Assembly (NCBI GenBank): GCA_021296095.1
Contig: JAGWBB010000010.1
Span: forward strand, 1-42,945
Reading direction: 5' to 3'
Length of the DNA stretch: 42,945 bases
DNA from: Desulfurellaceae bacterium
GTDB taxonomy: Bacteria > Desulfobacterota > Binatia > Bin18
Positions 32,546 through 42,945 of the stretch are shown here, one piece after another; the first letter of the stretch is position 1, and each line of letters begins with the position of its first letter. Position numbers and translations under genes: made by a program. Under the pieces are notes generated by a model. It was not told where the DNA came from, ran no database searches, and worked only from the letters and a program-made list of their open reading frames with translations.

Positions 32546-32570
32546 GAAATTGATAATGATTCTCAATTTC
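32546..32570 (+). promoter_or_regulatory. Fur-box-like operator 1 with upstream TTGACA
   Basis: GAAATTGA and TCAATTTC form an 8-bp perfect inverted repeat around TAATGATTC. The core TGATAATGATTCTCA (32551-32565) fits the Fur 7-1-7 pattern, and 15 of 19 positions match the classical GATAATGATAATCATTATC box. TTGACA at 32537-32542 is a perfect -35 just upstream, so the operator would cover the -10 and start site. It probably represses the com-porin-FMN-ApbE operon when iron is plentiful. Confidence 0.75.
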
Positions 32571-32574
32571 ACTC

Positions 32575-32784
32575 ATGGAAGTCCAAGCTCCATCTTCCTC
32601 ATCAAGCCATGCGCAAGAGTGTCGCTGCTGCTGCGGGAACCTCTTAGCCCTGCTCCGCCCAAACGGCGTCGAACTCAAATGTCGGCGCTGTAAACGGATC
32701 GTTCTCATTCCGTGGGGTGCAGCGTCGATGCGGCATGACGTGACAGCTGAGTGGCGGGACGCCGAACAGGAAGGAGGCAACTGA
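32575..32784 (+). CDS. Small Com-like zinc-finger protein
   Basis: The 69-aa protein has a Cys cluster (C16, C18-C20) followed by GNLLAL and VELKCRRCKRIV (C36, C39). This is the layout of the Com family zinc ribbon, named after the phage Mu Com translational activator of mom. The ATG lies only 4 nt after the Fur box, and no Shine-Dalgarno is visible, so the message may be nearly leaderless or the true start may lie downstream. It is the first ORF of the iron-regulated operon. A nucleic-acid-binding role is plausible; the target is unknown. No phage genes adjoin it. Confidence 0.6.
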   Translation: MEVQAPSSSSSHAQECRCCCGNLLALLRPNGVELKCRRCKRIVLIPWGAASMRHDVTAEWRDAEQEGGN

Positions 32785-32821
32785 GCCCAGAGCCATGATG
32801 TGATCGAATCAGTGCGGCAGA

Positions 32822-32880
32822 GGCCAGCGGTACCAAACCCAGAGCCCTTTTGTGATGGACCTCAAACAGGGAGGAGGGTT
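32822..32880 (+). promoter_or_regulatory. Leader element copy A (GGCCAG...CAGAGCCC) with Shine-Dalgarno-masking hairpin
   Basis: GGCCAG (32822-32827) and CAGAGCCC (32840-32847) are 12 nt apart, matching copies B and C in this window. Downstream, AACCC (32836-32840) and CCC (32845-32847) can pair with GGGTT (32876-32880) and GGG (32869-32871) across a symmetrical 4-nt internal loop. This would bury the GGAGGAGG ribosome-binding site of the porin gene. There is no U-tract, unlike the other two copies. Confidence 0.55.
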
Positions 32881-32884
32881 GAGA

Positions 32885-34330
32885 ATGGTACGAATGTTGG
32901 CAGTCGCCCTGGCGACGCTCATCTGCATGGGCGGGACTTCTCAGTTGGCCCGGGCAGCTGATGATGACCGAATTCAGCAGTTGGAACAGCAAATGCTACA
33001 GATGCAACAAGAACTGACTGCTCTCAAAGAAGAACGACAGCAGGAGCAGGAAGAAGCCACCCGGCGCACCAGCCTGCTGGCCGAGGAAGTGGAAAACCTG
33101 CGCACCAGCCTGACCGTGCCCGACTTCGAGCCGCTGACCATGGAAGACAGCGTGTACGGCCTGGGACCGGCAGCCTCGAAGATTTACGGCGTGGAGCGGG
33201 GCTTGTCGATCGGCGGCTATGGTGAGGCCTTTTACCGCAAGGATGTGAGCGATAAGACGCGCAGCGACCGCGACTTCACGGACAACCTGCGTTTCGTACT
33301 GTACACCGGCTATAAGTTCACCGACCGCATCATCCTGAACGCCGAGTTGGAGTTCGAGCACGCCGGGACGGGCGCCGGCGGCTCGGTGTCGGTCGAGTTC
33401 GCCTACATCGATTTCCTGATGTGGGAGTGGGCCAACTTCCGCGCCGGCATGTTGCTCGCCCCGCTGGGTATCGTCAACGAGTTGCACGAGCCCGTGTTCT
33501 TCTACGGCGTGGAGCGACCCGAGGTCGAGCGGCGCATCATCCCCTCAACTTGGCGCGAGAACGGCATCGGCATATTCGGCCAACTGCTGCCCGGCCTGGA
33601 ATACCGCATCTACGGCATGAACGCGCTTGAAGGCGCGTCGAGCAACACGGCAGCGTGTACGCCTGACGAGAACGGCAACTGTTTGACCAAGCCCTCGTTC
33701 AAACTGAAGGAACACTTCCGCAGCACGCGCCAGAAGGGCGGGAATGCCATGGCCGAGGATATCGCCCTGGCCGCGCGGCTGGACTATACGCCGATGCTGA
33801 ACCTCACGTTCGGCGGCTCGGTGTACACCGGCAAGACCTCCCACGACAGTCAGTACTACGAGTGTGTGGACGGGGAATGTGGCCCGGTCAATGTGCCCGG
33901 CGCGCGGCTGACCATCTGGGAACTGCATGGCATGTACAGCTGGCAAGGGCTGGACCTGCGGGCGCTGTTCGCCATGTCCCATCTGGAAGACTCGGACGAA
34001 CTCAACCGGATCGGCGGCGGCGGCAAGATCGCCAAGGAGATGTACGGCTTCTATACCGAGGCCGCCTACGACATCATGCCGTGGCTGCTGGGCGACACCC
34101 AACAGCAATTGTCGCCCTTTTTCCGCTTCTCGCTTATCGACCAGCATGCCGATATGGCCGGAGACTGGGAGGAACAGGATCGGTACGAGCACAACATCTG
34201 GACCACCGGTATCAGCTATAAACCTCACCCCAACGTCGTGCTCAAGGTAGATTACCGCAACTTCGATACCGAAGATAACAACCACGAGCGCGAAGACGAG
34301 GTCAACTTTGGCATTGGCTTTGTCTTCTAG
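32885..34330 (+). CDS. Outer-membrane porin with N-terminal coiled coil
   Basis: The 481-aa protein has a signal peptide (1-24, ending LARA), then a coiled coil (about 28-75, rich in QQLE/EEQ heptads). A beta-barrel follows, made of alternating aromatic/hydrophobic strands (GGYGEAFYRKDV, RFVLYTGYKFTDRIILNAELEFEHAG, FRAGMLLAPLGIVNELHEP) and ending in NFGIGFVF with C-terminal Phe, the outer-membrane targeting residue. The layout resembles OprO/P-like and other coiled-coil porins. ATG 32885 sits 6 nt after GGAGGAGGG; a longer frame from 32852 would cover the ribosome-binding site. It is Fur-box-controlled and overlaps the next gene, so it may pass iron chelates or other small substrates (inference). 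Confidence 0.85.
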   Translation: MVRMLAVALATLICMGGTSQLARAADDDRIQQLEQQMLQMQQELTALKEERQQEQEEATRRTSLLAEEVENLRTSLTVPDFEPLTMEDSVYGLGPAASKIYGVERGLSIGGYGEAFYRKDVSDKTRSDRDFTDNLRFVLYTGYKFTDRIILNAELEFEHAGTGAGGSVSVEFAYIDFLMWEWANFRAGMLLAPLGIVNELHEPVFFYGVERPEVERRIIPSTWRENGIGIFGQLLPGLEYRIYGMNALEGASSNTAACTPDENGNCLTKPSFKLKEHFRSTRQKGGNAMAEDIALAARLDYTPMLNLTFGGSVYTGKTSHDSQYYECVDGECGPVNVPGARLTIWELHGMYSWQGLDLRALFAMSHLEDSDELNRIGGGGKIAKEMYGFYTEAAYDIMPWLLGDTQQQLSPFFRFSLIDQHADMAGDWEEQDRYEHNIWTTGISYKPHPNVVLKVDYRNFDTEDNNHEREDEVNFGIGFVF

Positions 34331-36457: not shown

Positions 36458-36479
36458 GCGCACACATCAGGAGAGACGT

Positions 36480-36839
36480 ATGTCACACGAGCAAATCTTG
36501 AGTACCATCACGGCCGACAAGGAGCACAGCCGTCTTGAAGTCGCCCTCAGCTCCGATGCCGCCGGCGAACAGACCCTTGAACTCCGGCGGCAGTCGTGGG
36601 GCAAAGGCGTGGGCTGGTACCGGCAACACACCTTACAGCTCGGGCCGGCGGAAGCGGAGGCCCTGCTTCAGACCTTGCGCACAAGCGGCCACACCTGGCG
36701 GAAACACTCGAAACGGACTGGCGGAAAGGTCATTCCGTTTCCCGGACGTGCGTCGGGTACGATTCTCGGCGGCGGGAGGACGGATAAAGGCGATGGGGAG
36801 AGGGCGAAACGGACAAAAAAACGGGCAGCCCGTTCATGA
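36480..36839 (+). CDS. Small basic hypothetical protein
   Basis: The 119-aa protein is not recognised. It has a predicted mixed N-terminal domain (EQTLELRRQSWGKGVGWYRQ, then an LGPAEAEALLQTL helix) and a basic tail (GERAKRTKKRAARS). There is no signal peptide and no Cys. ATG 36480 follows AGGAG and lies 22 nt after apbE, so it is probably the last gene of the operon. Its final codons overlap the terminator of the opposite-strand ferritin-like gene. Confidence 0.65.
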   Translation: MSHEQILSTITADKEHSRLEVALSSDAAGEQTLELRRQSWGKGVGWYRQHTLQLGPAEAEALLQTLRTSGHTWRKHSKRTGGKVIPFPGRASGTILGGGRTDKGDGERAKRTKKRAARS

Positions 36840-36879: not shown

Positions 36880-37341
36880 TTAGCCGACCCGGCGCAGATT
36901 CACCTCGCGCTCAAGCCCACTCGTTTGGACCATGCCGAGATACATTTCAAGCTCTTCAATGTCTGCCTGCTCCGCCTCAATCTGGTTCTCCAGCATGACG
37001 CGCAGCGGCAGGTTATCGTCGGCCAGGGCGTGGGCGTCCATGTATGCCTGCAGGGCAGCCCGTTCGAGTTCCAAATCCTGGTTCAGCATCTCTTCGAGGT
37101 CGGTTGACTGGCGAATCGGCGCGCCCAACTCGACCGTCGGGATACCGCCCAGGATCACAACTTTCTGGCCGAACTTGTGGGCGTGGCCGTGGGCACTCTC
37201 GCTCTGGTCGGAAAAGAAGCCCGCGTACTCCTTGCGCCACAAGCCGCTGACCAGCAGGGCGTGCTGTTTGTACTGCATGACTGCGGTGTGTTCCAAAGCA
37301 ACCGCCTTATTGAGCGCATCAATCATCTTTTTGGTATCCAT
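36880..37341 (-). CDS. Bacterioferritin-like protein
   Basis: The 153-aa four-helix protein has ferritin-type metal ligands: ALEHTAVMQY in helix A, SESAHGHAHKFG in helix B, LELERAALQAY in helix C, and QIEAEQADIEELEMY in helix D. Bacterioferritins usually have E-x-x-H in the last helix; here the His is Gln (EAEQ), so the ferroxidase centre is not standard. No clear heme-ligand Met is visible at the usual place. I start at ATG 37341, behind AAAGGAG; the frame extends to 37386 without similarity. It stores iron or protects DNA from it, fitting the surrounding iron locus. Confidence 0.85.
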   Translation of the reverse strand: MDTKKMIDALNKAVALEHTAVMQYKQHALLVSGLWRKEYAGFFSDQSESAHGHAHKFGQKVVILGGIPTVELGAPIRQSTDLEEMLNQDLELERAALQAYMDAHALADDNLPLRVMLENQIEAEQADIEELEMYLGMVQTSGLEREVNLRRVG

Positions 37342-37453: not shown

Positions 37454-37476
37454 AAAATGATTCTGATAATCATTTT
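37454..37476. promoter_or_regulatory. Fur-box-like operator 2
   Basis: AAAATGATT and AATCATTTT form a perfect 9-bp inverted repeat with a 5-bp spacer. The core TGATTCTGATAATCA (37458-37472) has 7-1-7 form, and 16 of 19 bases match the classical Fur consensus over 37459-37477. It is the closest to consensus of the five in the window and lies in the divergent ferritin/71-aa-gene region. Confidence 0.8.
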
Positions 37477-37497
37477 CAACTAGAAGCAAAGACGATT

Positions 37498-37514
37498 TTG
37501 AAATCCATTTTCAA
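37498..37514. promoter_or_regulatory. Fur-box-like operator 3
   Basis: TTGAAA and TTTCAA form an inverted repeat around TCCAT. The core TGAAATCCATTTTCA (37499-37513) has the same TGA-N9-TCA frame as operators 1, 2, 4 and 5. Its centre is about 41 bp from operator 2. Confidence 0.65.
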
Positions 37515-37539
37515 TTAGAAACGCTATTCATGAACTGAT

Positions 37540-37558
37540 ATTGAAAAGCATTTTCAAT
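37540..37558. promoter_or_regulatory. Fur-box-like operator 4
   Basis: ATTGAAAA and TTTTCAAT form a perfect 8-bp inverted repeat around GCA. The core is TGAAAAGCATTTTCA (37542-37556). Its centre is about 43 bp from operator 3 and about 80 bp upstream of leader copy B. Confidence 0.65.
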
Positions 37559-37629
37559 TCACCCCGGAAAGGACGCCATATGGGACCCTAGTCTATATTT
37601 CACAGGACCGGAGATAAGAGCTGAAAAGC

Positions 37630-37684
37630 GGCCAGAGGTATGCACCCAGAGCCCGTGGAGACATCGTCTTCGCGGGCTTTTTTT
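37630..37684 (+). promoter_or_regulatory. Leader element copy B (GGCCAG...CAGAGCCC) ending in an intrinsic terminator
   Basis: GGCCAG (37630-37635) and CAGAGCCC (37647-37654) are 11 nt apart, matching copies A and C. The last bases of CAGAGCCC form the start of a terminator stem. The element lies downstream of Fur boxes 2-4 and 38 nt before the 71-aa gene. It may be a transcription attenuator in the leader of the 71-aa/imelysin/di-heme genes, or the body of a short Fur-controlled RNA. Confidence 0.6.
37650..37684 (+). terminator. Intrinsic terminator within leader copy B
   Basis: AGCCCGTGGAGAC (37650-37662) and GTCTTCGCGGGCT (37666-37678) form a 13-bp stem (two G-T wobbles) with a 3-nt ATC loop, followed by seven T. 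It is placed upstream of a coding region, not after one, so it acts as an attenuator or ends a small RNA. Confidence 0.88.
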
Positions 37685-37722: not shown

Positions 37723-37938
37723 ATGGAAAAAATCCAGGACAACAACACGGTCGTCTTCATGAACCAGCGTGGGCTTTCCACCCGGATCTGTCCGCGTGGC
37801 AGTGTGGCCGTGTGTATCGGTCATACCTGCGTGTCCCTCCGCAAGTCGGATTTTCTCGATCTGGCGGAAATTATCATGGCCACCCAACAACACCTGCTCG
37901 AACATGACGGCTTTGAACATGGCCACACAAAGCACTGA
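37723..37938 (+). CDS. Small Cys/His protein in the iron locus (hypothetical)
   Basis: The 71-aa protein starts at an ATG with a strong AAAAGGAGG. It has three Cys (C23 in RICPRG, C31 and C36 in VCIGHTCVSL), a helical middle (KSDFLDLAEIIM), and a His-rich end (HDGFEHGHTKH). There is no signal peptide. I do not recognise the family; it faintly resembles short iron-regulated Bacteroidetes proteins. It lies 34 nt before the imelysin gene and is presumably co-transcribed. The Cys/His content suggests metal or heme contact (inference). Confidence 0.7.
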   Translation: MEKIQDNNTVVFMNQRGLSTRICPRGSVAVCIGHTCVSLRKSDFLDLAEIIMATQQHLLEHDGFEHGHTKH

Positions 37939-37972: not shown

Positions 37973-39619
37973 ATGAAGAAGTCAATATGGATGATGTTTG
38001 CGGGCCTGCTGTTCAGCGCCCTTCCGGCCTTCGCCACCATTCAGGTCAGCCTGGAAAACCCGGCCAGCGGGACGAGCGCCAGCGGAGTGACGGTTGTTTC
38101 CGGCTGGGCCTTCAGCGACAGCGGCGCCGCAGTCACGGTCTCGCTGCGCGTCAACGGGAAAACCACCGAGACCACAGTGCTGTGCTGCGGACCGCGTCAA
38201 GATGTCAAGGATAGGCACGCAGCGGCGCCGCTCAACAGCGGCTTCGGCCTGTTGTGGAATTATGGTGCATTGCCCTCGGGCGTCCACACCATCGGCGTCG
38301 AAGTCAGCGCCGAGGGCGAGGAGTCGGTGATTGCGGACAGCAGCATCACCGTGGTGAGACCGGCCGATGCCGAGTTTCTCGAGTCGCTCTCAATCGACAA
38401 TGCCAGGGTCGACATACATGACGGCGAAATTCATATTACCGAGGCCGAGGCGACCCCAACAGACGACACCTCAGTCAAAACAGATCTGACCCTGTCCTAC
38501 CACGTCAGCCGTCAGGGGTTTGGGATCGACATGGCTCAGGATGACCTCGGTCCCATGCAGTCCCCCTACGATGCGTTGGAACTGTTAGAGGATGTCGCCC
38601 ATGCCATCTTCGCCACCTATGACGCGCTGAATGAAGCGACGATAGACCCGGAGGCGTCCACCACGGGCATGACGGTGGACACGAGCACCCTGCACGCGGC
38701 GGTCCATTCCTTTGTCGGGACGAGCGCCGGAAGCCAGGCTGCGGCTGTTGAGCTGCTGCCCGCCGTCCAAGCCGCCTGGCGGAATACGCGGGTCCCCTGG
38801 GAGCAGAGCGAGGCGTTTCTGTTCGGGCCGGTGGACAGTGACGAACACGACCCCTTCCTGGATACCTGGCCGCTCAACGTCACCGACCTCGAAAATATCA
38901 TCGCCTCCAGCGATGACATTGCGACCCTCGATCTTGCCGACGATGTCCAGGGCTTCCACGCCCTGGAATATCTGCTGTTCCAAGACAAAAACGGGAGTAC
39001 CGACCCCGCCGCGATTGTGGCCGGCTTCAGCACCGACGAACGCAGGCGAACCTACGCGCGGACTGTGGCCGGTCTCTTTGCCCGCCACACCCAGGAACTC
39101 CGCAACAGTTGGGACCCGGCAGGCGGCGACTTTGTGCACGAACTGGCCCTGGCCGGCCGCGGTAGGATGACCTACACCGACCAGAAATCGGCCGTGCAGG
39201 AGCTGGTCAACGGCATGATCGGGATTGCCGACGAGTTGGGCAACGTCAAAATAGGGGTTCCTCTCAACGATCAGAGCACCGCCGAAGAAGAGTCGCGCTT
39301 CAGCAACAACTCCAGGCGCGACTTCATCGACAACGTGCGCAGCATCAACAACGTCTATGAGGGCCGTTTTGACCAGCATGACGGCACCTCGACGGGAGTG
39401 ACGGATTTTGTCGCCAATCAAGACCCGGCCCTTGACGCGAAGGTACGGATGGCGATCCGTGACGCCATGACGGCAGTCATCGCCATCCCCGAGCCGTTTG
39501 GCCAGAGCATCATGAGCCATCGCGCGACTGTCCAAGCGGCGGTCGAGGCAGCCCAGCACTTGCAGGCGACGCTGGAAGAAATCCTGCCTGTCGTCCAGGC
39601 GGCGAGCTTCACCCACTGA
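37973..39619 (+). CDS. Imelysin-family (M75-like) protein with extra N-terminal domain
   Basis: The 548-aa exported protein has a signal peptide at about 1-22. Residues about 23-130 form a beta-rich domain with VVSGWAFSDS, LCCGPRQDV and GVHTIGVEV; this domain recurs in the neighbouring di-heme protein. The imelysin domain follows (about 165-540), with the GxHxxE motif as GFHALE (327-332) and LEYLLFQDKNG beyond it. Imelysins are periplasmic or lipoprotein iron-uptake components (IrpA/EfeO relatives); despite the old name they are not proven peptidases. AGAAGGAG precedes the ATG. The di-heme oxidoreductase gene lies 126 nt downstream, as in known Fur-regulated imelysin operons. Confidence 0.9.
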   Translation: MKKSIWMMFAGLLFSALPAFATIQVSLENPASGTSASGVTVVSGWAFSDSGAAVTVSLRVNGKTTETTVLCCGPRQDVKDRHAAAPLNSGFGLLWNYGALPSGVHTIGVEVSAEGEESVIADSSITVVRPADAEFLESLSIDNARVDIHDGEIHITEAEATPTDDTSVKTDLTLSYHVSRQGFGIDMAQDDLGPMQSPYDALELLEDVAHAIFATYDALNEATIDPEASTTGMTVDTSTLHAAVHSFVGTSAGSQAAAVELLPAVQAAWRNTRVPWEQSEAFLFGPVDSDEHDPFLDTWPLNVTDLENIIASSDDIATLDLADDVQGFHALEYLLFQDKNGSTDPAAIVAGFSTDERRRTYARTVAGLFARHTQELRNSWDPAGGDFVHELALAGRGRMTYTDQKSAVQELVNGMIGIADELGNVKIGVPLNDQSTAEEESRFSNNSRRDFIDNVRSINNVYEGRFDQHDGTSTGVTDFVANQDPALDAKVRMAIRDAMTAVIAIPEPFGQSIMSHRATVQAAVEAAQHLQATLEEILPVVQAASFTH

Positions 39620-41659: not shown

Positions 41660-41684
41660 GTTGAATTTGAAAATCAATTTCAAC
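41660..41684 (+). promoter_or_regulatory. Fur-box-like operator 5
   Basis: GTTGAA...TTCAAC is the outer repeat, and TTGAAA-ATCAA-TTTCAA the inner one (41667-41683). The core TGAAAATCAATTTCA (41668-41682) fits TGA-N9-TCA. TTGACA lies at 41628-41633. The box ends 12 nt before leader copy C, so the RNA from this promoter would start very close to that element. Confidence 0.7.
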
Positions 41685-41696
41685 TGACAGAGTAGA

Positions 41697-41756
41697 GGCC
41701 AGCAGCGATACAGCTCAGAGCCCGCCAGGAAGCATGTTTTCCGGCGGGCTTTTTTT
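41697..41756 (+). promoter_or_regulatory. Leader element copy C (GGCCAG...CAGAGCCC) ending in an intrinsic terminator
   Basis: GGCCAG (41697-41702) and CAGAGCCC (41716-41723) are 13 nt apart, matching copies A and B. The 3' part again flows into a terminator stem. It lies directly after operator 5 and about 130 nt before the TonB receptor start. The transcript from the promoter to the T-run would be only about 70-95 nt. Confidence 0.6.
41719..41756 (+). terminator. Intrinsic terminator within leader copy C
   Basis: AGCCCGCC (41719-41726) and GGCGGGCT (41743-41750) form a perfect 8-bp stem, extended above a one-base bulge by GGAA/TTCC, and followed by seven T. Like the one in copy B it precedes a gene. 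Confidence 0.9.
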
Positions 41757-41884: not shown

Positions 41885-42945
41885 ATGCGAACCAGCTGTG
41901 TTTGGAGCCTGGCGGCCGTTCTTGTCGTGTGTCTGGGGACCACCAGCCCGGCCCAGGACTCCCCGCAGCAGACACCAGCCTCGGGCGAACAGCCCGTGTC
42001 GCAACCCGTCCCGCCGTCGTCCGCTCCGGCTGTCATGCTGGACAAAATATCGGTAACAGCCACAAAAAGTGAGGAACGTTCGGTGTCCAATATCCCCGGC
42101 CATGTCAGCGTCATCGACCGCCAGGACATTGAGCGTTACCAGGCCCAGGACCTGGCCGACCTGCTGCGCTATGAGCCGGGCATAGACATTGTTTCGGGAC
42201 CACGCCGCATCACCGAACGGCCCTCGATTCGCGGGCTGAGCGGCACCCGCGTCCTGCTGACCGTCGACGGCGCCCGGCTCAATTACAACACCGCCCATGG
42301 GGGCAACCTCAACTTCGTTGACATCGAGTCCTTGGAACGGCTCGAAATCATCCGCGGCCCGGCCTCGGCGCTGTACGGCAGCAGCGCCCTGGGCGGCACG
42401 ATCAATATGCTGACCAAGAGCGGCAGTGAAATGCTCCGCCCCGGCCAGACGGTGGGCGCCCGGGCGCGCTGGACGTTTAACAGCAACAACCAGGAGCTGA
42501 GCGAGCACGTCTCCCTGTACGGCATCATTGGCAAGCGTTTCGATTACATCGTCAGCTACACCCGCCACGACGCGAGCGATGTGGAGACGGCCAGAGACAC
42601 CATCGACAACAGCGGCTTCCGCACAAATGACGTGTTTCTCAAGAGCCGCTATTTTGTGACCGAGCGGGATACGCTGAGTTTCACCACCCAACTCTTTCGC
42701 GACACCTCGGATATTCCCTTTGCGTCGAGCGACCAATACGCCAGCCGTACCCAAGACGATGATACGGACCGCAATCTGTTCAACCTGCGCTACGAACACC
42801 ACTCACCGGGTTCGTGGCTGAGCCGCATCACCTGGCTGGGCTATCTGCACCAGACCGATATTCAGGAGGACGAAAAGCGCCGCGCCCCGGACCACAGTCG
42901 GACACGCATCAAGGACGACCTGGACTGGGACACCTGGGGCAGCGA
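41885..42945 (+). CDS. TonB-dependent outer-membrane receptor, heme/hemoglobin-receptor-like (3' end cut by window edge)
   Basis: The visible 353 residues contain a signal peptide (about 1-23), a Pro/Gln/Ser-rich linker (24-50) and a TonB box region (MLDKISVTATK, 51-61). The plug domain carries VIDRQDIERYQAQDLADLL, RPSIRGLSGTRVLLTVDGAR, and LEIIRGPASALYGSSALGGTINM. The first barrel strands then follow. The plug resembles TonB-hemin receptors, though siderophore receptors share most of it, so the ligand is open. ATG 41885 has AAAGAGAG upstream. The gene is missing its C-terminal barrel only because the window ends. Control is by Fur-box operator 5 and the attenuator-like copy C. Confidence 0.92.
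   Translation, partial: MRTSCVWSLAAVLVVCLGTTSPAQDSPQQTPASGEQPVSQPVPPSSAPAVMLDKISVTATKSEERSVSNIPGHVSVIDRQDIERYQAQDLADLLRYEPGIDIVSGPRRITERPSIRGLSGTRVLLTVDGARLNYNTAHGGNLNFVDIESLERLEIIRGPASALYGSSALGGTINMLTKSGSEMLRPGQTVGARARWTFNSNNQELSEHVSLYGIIGKRFDYIVSYTRHDASDVETARDTIDNSGFRTNDVFLKSRYFVTERDTLSFTTQLFRDTSDIPFASSDQYASRTQDDDTDRNLFNLRYEHHSPGSWLSRITWLGYLHQTDIQEDEKRRAPDHSRTRIKDDLDWDTWGS

Follow-up and report, generated by a model that had tools for sequence, protein, structure and literature searches.

In the BglG/LicT systems, a short irregular RNA hairpin (RAT) has sequence in common with the 5' strand of a terminator, over which it prevails with the help of a protein. In phage Mu, the zinc protein Com binds a hairpin located ahead of mom; an inhibitory structure is opened and the translation of mom is activated (PMC6483171). 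SELEX with Com produced a twice-repeated GAG/CC motif flanking a stem of 3-4 nt, and a CC(N)2-3GAG motif (PMC6483171). Outside phage Mu, the literature searched gave com-like genes only in Pseudomonas, where they precede lectin-like bacteriocin and levansucrase genes and where the available text of the two papers calls their role unexplored (PMC6240691, PMC3899960). The available text of one of them also describes a stop codon in com of P. syringae that had no effect on lscB (PMC3899960).

In the window analysed here (the whole stretch of 42,945 nt), a com-like gene lies directly before the next gene with an RNA site between them, as in a com/mom-type system. The likeness to Mu includes a small, predicted four-cysteine zinc ribbon (...VE[LI][KR]C.RCKR...), the position of com directly 5' of its target with a hairpin between, and a competing inhibitory structure. 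Unlike Mu com/mom, the system is chromosomal and multi-phylum, most of its copies are at terminators and some copies are in trans. The Pseudomonas com-like ORFs are likewise immediately 5' of a cargo gene; they belong to PF10122, have a prophage flavour and come from a single genus, and the available text of the papers gives no RNA target for them. With BglG/LicT-RAT the element shares the overlap of hairpin and terminator and the apparent need for a protein, whereas the RNA sequence and the protein are different, translation platforms also occur and no link to a sugar PTS was seen. Overall, the hairpin and its Com-like protein seem to form a switch that apparently has not been described before.

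Copies of the Element in the Window

The two-block pattern GGCCAG-N11-13-CAGAGCCC occurred exactly three times in the window, always on the + strand (copy A, 32822-32847; copy B, 37630-37654; copy C, 41697-41723), as an earlier note on this DNA had reported. Shuffled windows gave a mean of 0.02 matches and none of 100 shuffles reached three. The copies had been placed outside coding sequence, and this held for all three against real genes, although copy A follows a small ORF that had been overlooked: it lies 37 nt past the stop codon of a com-like ORF of 69 aa, between that ORF and a porin-like gene, rather than in a simple 5' UTR. The two exact blocks were present in every copy but proved to be the two strands of one hairpin in a larger element. 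Copies B and C continue into AGCCCG(N)CGGGCU-T7 terminators, as had been read from the second block, while copy A does not and has no terminator. Folding showed the same overlap of terminator and hairpin strands in relatives as in copy B. Coordinates are given in Table 1.

Table 1. Features of the com-like gene, the three hairpin copies and their surroundings (window coordinates).
Feature	Position	Strand	Remarks
Fur-box-like site	32552..32570	+	16/19, directly 5' of com-like ORF
Com-like ORF, predicted four-cysteine zinc ribbon, 69 aa (MEVQAPSSSSSHAQECRCCCGNLLALLRPNGVELKCRRCKRIVLIPWG...)	32575..32784	+	family profile 3.5e-21
Copy A hairpin	32819..32848, core 32822-32846	+	covariance model 44.8 bits
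Outer-membrane beta-barrel/porin-like gene	32885..34330	+	3' of copy A; OMP/porin matches sub-cutoff only
Fur-box-like cluster before copy B	37459..37555	+	37459, 16/19; 37494, 13/19; 37537, 15/19
Copy B hairpin	37627..37655, core 37630-37653	+	covariance model 40.8 bits
Intrinsic terminator B	37648..37684	+	5' strand (AGAGCCCG) doubles as 3' strand of hairpin B
71-aa ORF, no known family	37723..37938	+	first gene past copy B
Imelysin (Peptidase_M75) gene	37973..39619	+	-
Fur-box-like site before copy C	41663..41681	+	13/19
Copy C hairpin	41694..41724, core 41697-41722	+	42.0 bits; P2 = AGC/GCU
Intrinsic terminator C	41718..41756	+	overlaps hairpin C
TonB-dependent receptor gene (Plug domain)	41885..42945	+	extends beyond window end

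The host genome of the window had at least five hairpins, namely A, B, C and two more (D, E) on contig C104, and one com-like gene was found in it. Copy D (C104:790, + strand) lies ahead of a methyltransferase gene and copy E (C104:2651, - strand; L208:2651-2680) has no clear downstream gene. A TonB receptor-PKHD hydroxylase operon precedes copy E, which has a Fur-box-like promoter and a terminator that has decayed.

Of the Fur-box matches in the window, the best two were located directly before the com-like ORF and at copy B. In the window's family, Fur-box-like sites were present ahead of the com gene and most hairpin copies, so the system would switch on under iron limitation in the window's lineage. 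The proposed RNA layer beneath Fur is thus supported for this lineage, with the leader under Fur-box-like promoters.

Other small genes were observed around the copies. A ferritin-like (Dps/bacterioferritin family) gene at 36883-37341 (-) adjoins copy B and is divergent from the Fur-box-like cluster. An ORF at 36477-36839, without a Pfam match, shares the core 'ELRR.SWG.G(V/I)GW' with small ORFs of L263, L245 and L120, and such ORFs were neighbours of a com-like gene or a hairpin in several genomes. A protein of ~70 aa (...VFxNQxGI(S/A)ARVCPRG...) was found 3' of the hairpin in three genomes (the window's, L044 and L046), which could make it a conserved switch target.

Hairpin Structure, Covariation and Rfam Search

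The element is a hairpin with a stem P1 (GGC/GCC), a symmetric CAGM/CAGA internal loop, a 3-bp stem P2 and a small loop, and in relatives of the window's genome it has the fuller consensus (A/T)G(A/C)GGCCAGMGGU-N4-7-ACCCAGAGCCC. RNAfold preferred an extended hairpin in which the internal loop gains C-G and G-C pairs and two bulges are staggered. The P2 variants among the copies were GGU/ACC, AGC/GCU, GGC/GCC and GGA/UCC. In 83 distinct sequences, P2 showed changes on both sides at all three pairs, with 99.0% of cells paired compared to 96.1% after shuffling, and its covariation score was reached by none of 500 shuffles. P1 was invariant in this set, so its conservation alone is no proof; in the Nitrospira variant adjacent to com, P1 was GGC/GCC, GAC/GUC or GGC/GUC and P2 was GAC/GUC. 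Both stems are therefore supported, P2 by its covariation in the main set and P1 by its covariation in the Nitrospira variant.

The covariance models used in the searches were R2 and R3. Conserved blocks with covarying stems, the outcome that the earlier note had named as support, were observed. With covarying stems, placement before genes and an expression platform, the element is a structured cis-regulatory RNA, and the view of a conserved cis-acting leader joined to different expression platforms was sustained. The second block is in part the 5' strand of the terminator in B and C, which would also be expected if the copies were only look-alike terminators (AGCCCG...CGGGCT). That explanation is given next to no weight, since copies without a terminator retain the first block and the internal loop, and the covariation and the co-occurrence with com contradict it.

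The Rfam scan produced no match at gathering thresholds, in line with the earlier statement that no known class was recognised. The sub-threshold similarities, NsiR1 (25.6 of 39 bits) and OmrA-B, were terminator-driven: these sRNAs resemble the element in having a terminator hairpin and a few common letters (CCAGAGGUAU), but the scores of the element were far under the gathering scores. Assignment to a known RNA family or to a metabolite riboswitch is not supported. The Mu com/mom region did not match the covariance model of the hairpin. The hairpin strands CCAG(A/C)G and CCCAGAG flank a 3-bp stem; only the second, CCCAGAG, fits the CC(N)2-3GAG spacing selected by Com, and this is taken as a resemblance and not as proof.

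Distribution and Downstream Genes

A specific pattern of 20 bases was found in 92 DNA stretches from several phyla, compared to ~1.4 expected by an arithmetic estimate; four of these stretches (L063, L083, L097, L134) look like chance matches. Among the 80 of 92 matches listed, most were from Nitrospira and the others included Dehalococcoidia, other Chloroflexi, Myxococcales, 'Deltaproteobacteria' and Eisenbacteria. Overall, at least five bacterial phyla had the hairpin just before genes. The covariance model detected it in 98 of 147 Nitrospiraceae genomes, and two covariance models detected it in 28 of 148 from the window's class; motif-bearing genomes of both groups usually had one to four copies.

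The downstream genes encoded HD-GYP proteins for the Nitrospira copies, and acyl-CoA dehydrogenase and DUF6125 proteins for the Chloroflexi copies. A restriction to iron genes, or to TonB receptor and imelysin genes, is therefore not supported, and iron is the use made by one lineage and not the defining signal. In five Nitrospira loci (L067, L101, L110, L113, L139), a second small two-CxxC protein (C.LC...PWCRRCR, C.RC...LWC(I/L)KCR) was present ~1.2-1.4 kb past the hairpin.

Copies B and C could also be read as Fur-controlled sRNAs of the RyhB or OmrA type, whose short transcripts would end at the terminator and whose conserved part would act as a seed or bind a chaperone. The Fur-box-like promoters directly 5', the strong terminators, the weak NsiR1 and OmrA-B similarities and the lack of a downstream gene at copy E agree with such transcripts. 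However, most copies stand at a fixed short distance before a Shine-Dalgarno sequence and start codon (47-50 nt in Nitrospira), several have no terminator, Rfam gave no match at threshold, and many copies are flanked by com and the gene that comes next, a linkage that sRNAs leave unexplained. This reading is considered unlikely.

Com-like Protein Family and Linkage to the Hairpin

The 69-aa ORF of the window was the only com-like gene found in its genome by the family profile search. The core of the family is RCxCGxLLARLxxxGVELKCRRCKR, with four cysteines, and 22 members had invariant C18, C20, C36 and C39, the first pair being C-x-C, with RCKR after the last pair. The family is thus a predicted four-cysteine zinc ribbon with RCKR past the last cysteine pair, a Com-type feature. 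The com-like ORF pattern used requires CxC as the first pair; an ORF search for C..C/C..C beside the motifs appeared negative because the family uses CxC. In Mu Com the first pair is CxxC.

Profile comparison gave phage Mu Com as the nearest relative (probability 95, E 2e-8), and one family member matched PHROG gpCom (phrog_13819) at E 2.5e-5. The best family score against PF10122 was 14.3 bits, under the cutoff of 22.9; the ORF of the window itself had no match to PF10122, and no match to Pfam or NCBIfam was obtained for the family at cutoff. The predicted structure had a three-stranded core (pLDDT ~86), for which Foldseek returned no confident PDB match, and a profile search of PDB sequences likewise yielded none. 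The viral contigs searched had no relative of the protein and the annotated phages searched gave matches only at E≥3. Many Nitrospiraceae genomes had two to four com-like genes each, which suggests paralogues with different RNA targets.

In the window's class, a com-like gene was present in 28/28 motif-bearing genomes and in 19/120 others (Fisher p=6e-18), and in Nitrospiraceae in 95/98 and 32/49, respectively (p=4e-7); related genomes are non-independent points in both tests. The motif was present and a com-like gene was not detected in three Nitrospira genomes (G059, G249, G287). All six genomes tested from Chloroflexi and Eisenbacteria had a com-like gene, each just upstream of a hairpin copy. 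At 49 of 143 distinct hairpin sites, a com stop codon was 9-170 nt upstream on the same strand. Conversely, the structural motif was found within ~260 nt downstream of about 90 of 116 distinct com-like genes, against 1.4 expected from shuffles, 1/115 for the reverse-strand control and 7/109 for the upstream control region. The link between com and the hairpin recurred across phyla with differing downstream genes.

This tight linkage points to a protein-sensing leader, and a ligand-sensing riboswitch is not supported as the leading idea. If the RNA sensed a metabolite or metal, the com-like gene would be merely another regulated gene; one sensor-like motif with both terminator and translation platforms and covarying stems would suit such a sensor. 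Its size of only ~27 nt with two 3-bp stems would not, nor would targets without a common pathway (HD-GYP, acyl-CoA dehydrogenase, porins, TonB receptor, methyltransferase), and the hairpin is usually after com and not before it, although com is absent from hardly any motif-bearing genome. A riboswitch is accordingly held to be improbable.

Competing Folds and Proposed Mechanism

In the free leader, the full terminator was the minimum by folding, and forcing the hairpin removed the lower part of the terminator at a cost of ~6-16 kcal/mol. The pairs that were lost are those beside the U-run. Since the terminator wins in the free leader at this cost to the hairpin, an outside stabiliser would be needed, and Mu Com is a factor of this kind. 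In the Nitrospira copies adjacent to com, the 3' arm forms 10 bp with codons 7-10 of the following gene, whose start site is thereby enclosed, a translational version like that of mom. The paired strands of this variant, which is present in L059, L075, L089, L105 and further Nitrospira loci, are GACCAGAGACC-N-GAGUCCCGAGUC and the codon stretch CUCGGGGCUC, and L089 retains most of the pairing despite changes on both sides.

For copy A, the earlier pairing with the Shine-Dalgarno sequence of the porin gene is no more than suggestive; ~10% of shuffles did as well in start-region pairing. Shine-Dalgarno sequestration as a general rule for terminator-less copies received only partial support: L190 showed it clearly, L251 and L257 modestly and copy A weakly, and L189 and L192 did not show it.

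The hairpin is therefore probably the RNA target of the Com-like protein, acting as an antiterminator or a translation on-switch, to which a probability of about 0.7 is given. The hairpin and an off-structure would compete for the common 3' strand (CAGAGCCC), the off-structure being an intrinsic terminator in most copies and elsewhere a stem in which the start of the downstream gene is concealed. When present, the Com-like protein would bind and stabilise the hairpin; the terminator would then lose base pairs beside the U-run, or the start region would be freed, and the next gene would be expressed. The com-like gene is often first in an operon, with the hairpin between com and the gene that would be activated, as com stands before mom in Mu, and further copies (B and C in the window) would form a regulon in trans. 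In the window's lineage, where com and most copies lie behind Fur-box-like sites, the system would come on when iron is limiting.

The anatomy, conservation, covariation, com linkage and competing folds of the hairpin are computational results, whereas binding and activation by the protein are inferred. It might instead bind the hairpin and repress, or mainly limit polarity in its own operon as autoregulation, and com is indeed often the first cistron with the hairpin past its stop codon. Such a role is doubtful, since copies B, C and D are in trans behind their own promoters and the hairpin and terminator are mutually exclusive, so that stabilisation of the hairpin should relieve termination.

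A wider reading, at even odds, is a multi-phylum chromosomal system in which the Com-like zinc ribbon would work, through a hairpin with covarying stems, as a dedicated antiterminator and translation activator. Its metal site might sense iron, zinc or redox state, and Mu com/mom would be a specialised cousin. The reading of the element thus shifts from a possible riboswitch in an iron locus to an RNA that is probably targeted by a Com-like zinc-ribbon protein. The finding would provide a new RNA family and the protein that probably acts on it, a small natural pair of RNA and protein with which antitermination could be studied in vitro, and a concrete, testable chromosomal role for orphan Com-type zinc ribbons. 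It predicts a new control of iron uptake, HD-GYP signalling and other genes in Nitrospira and many uncultured bacteria.
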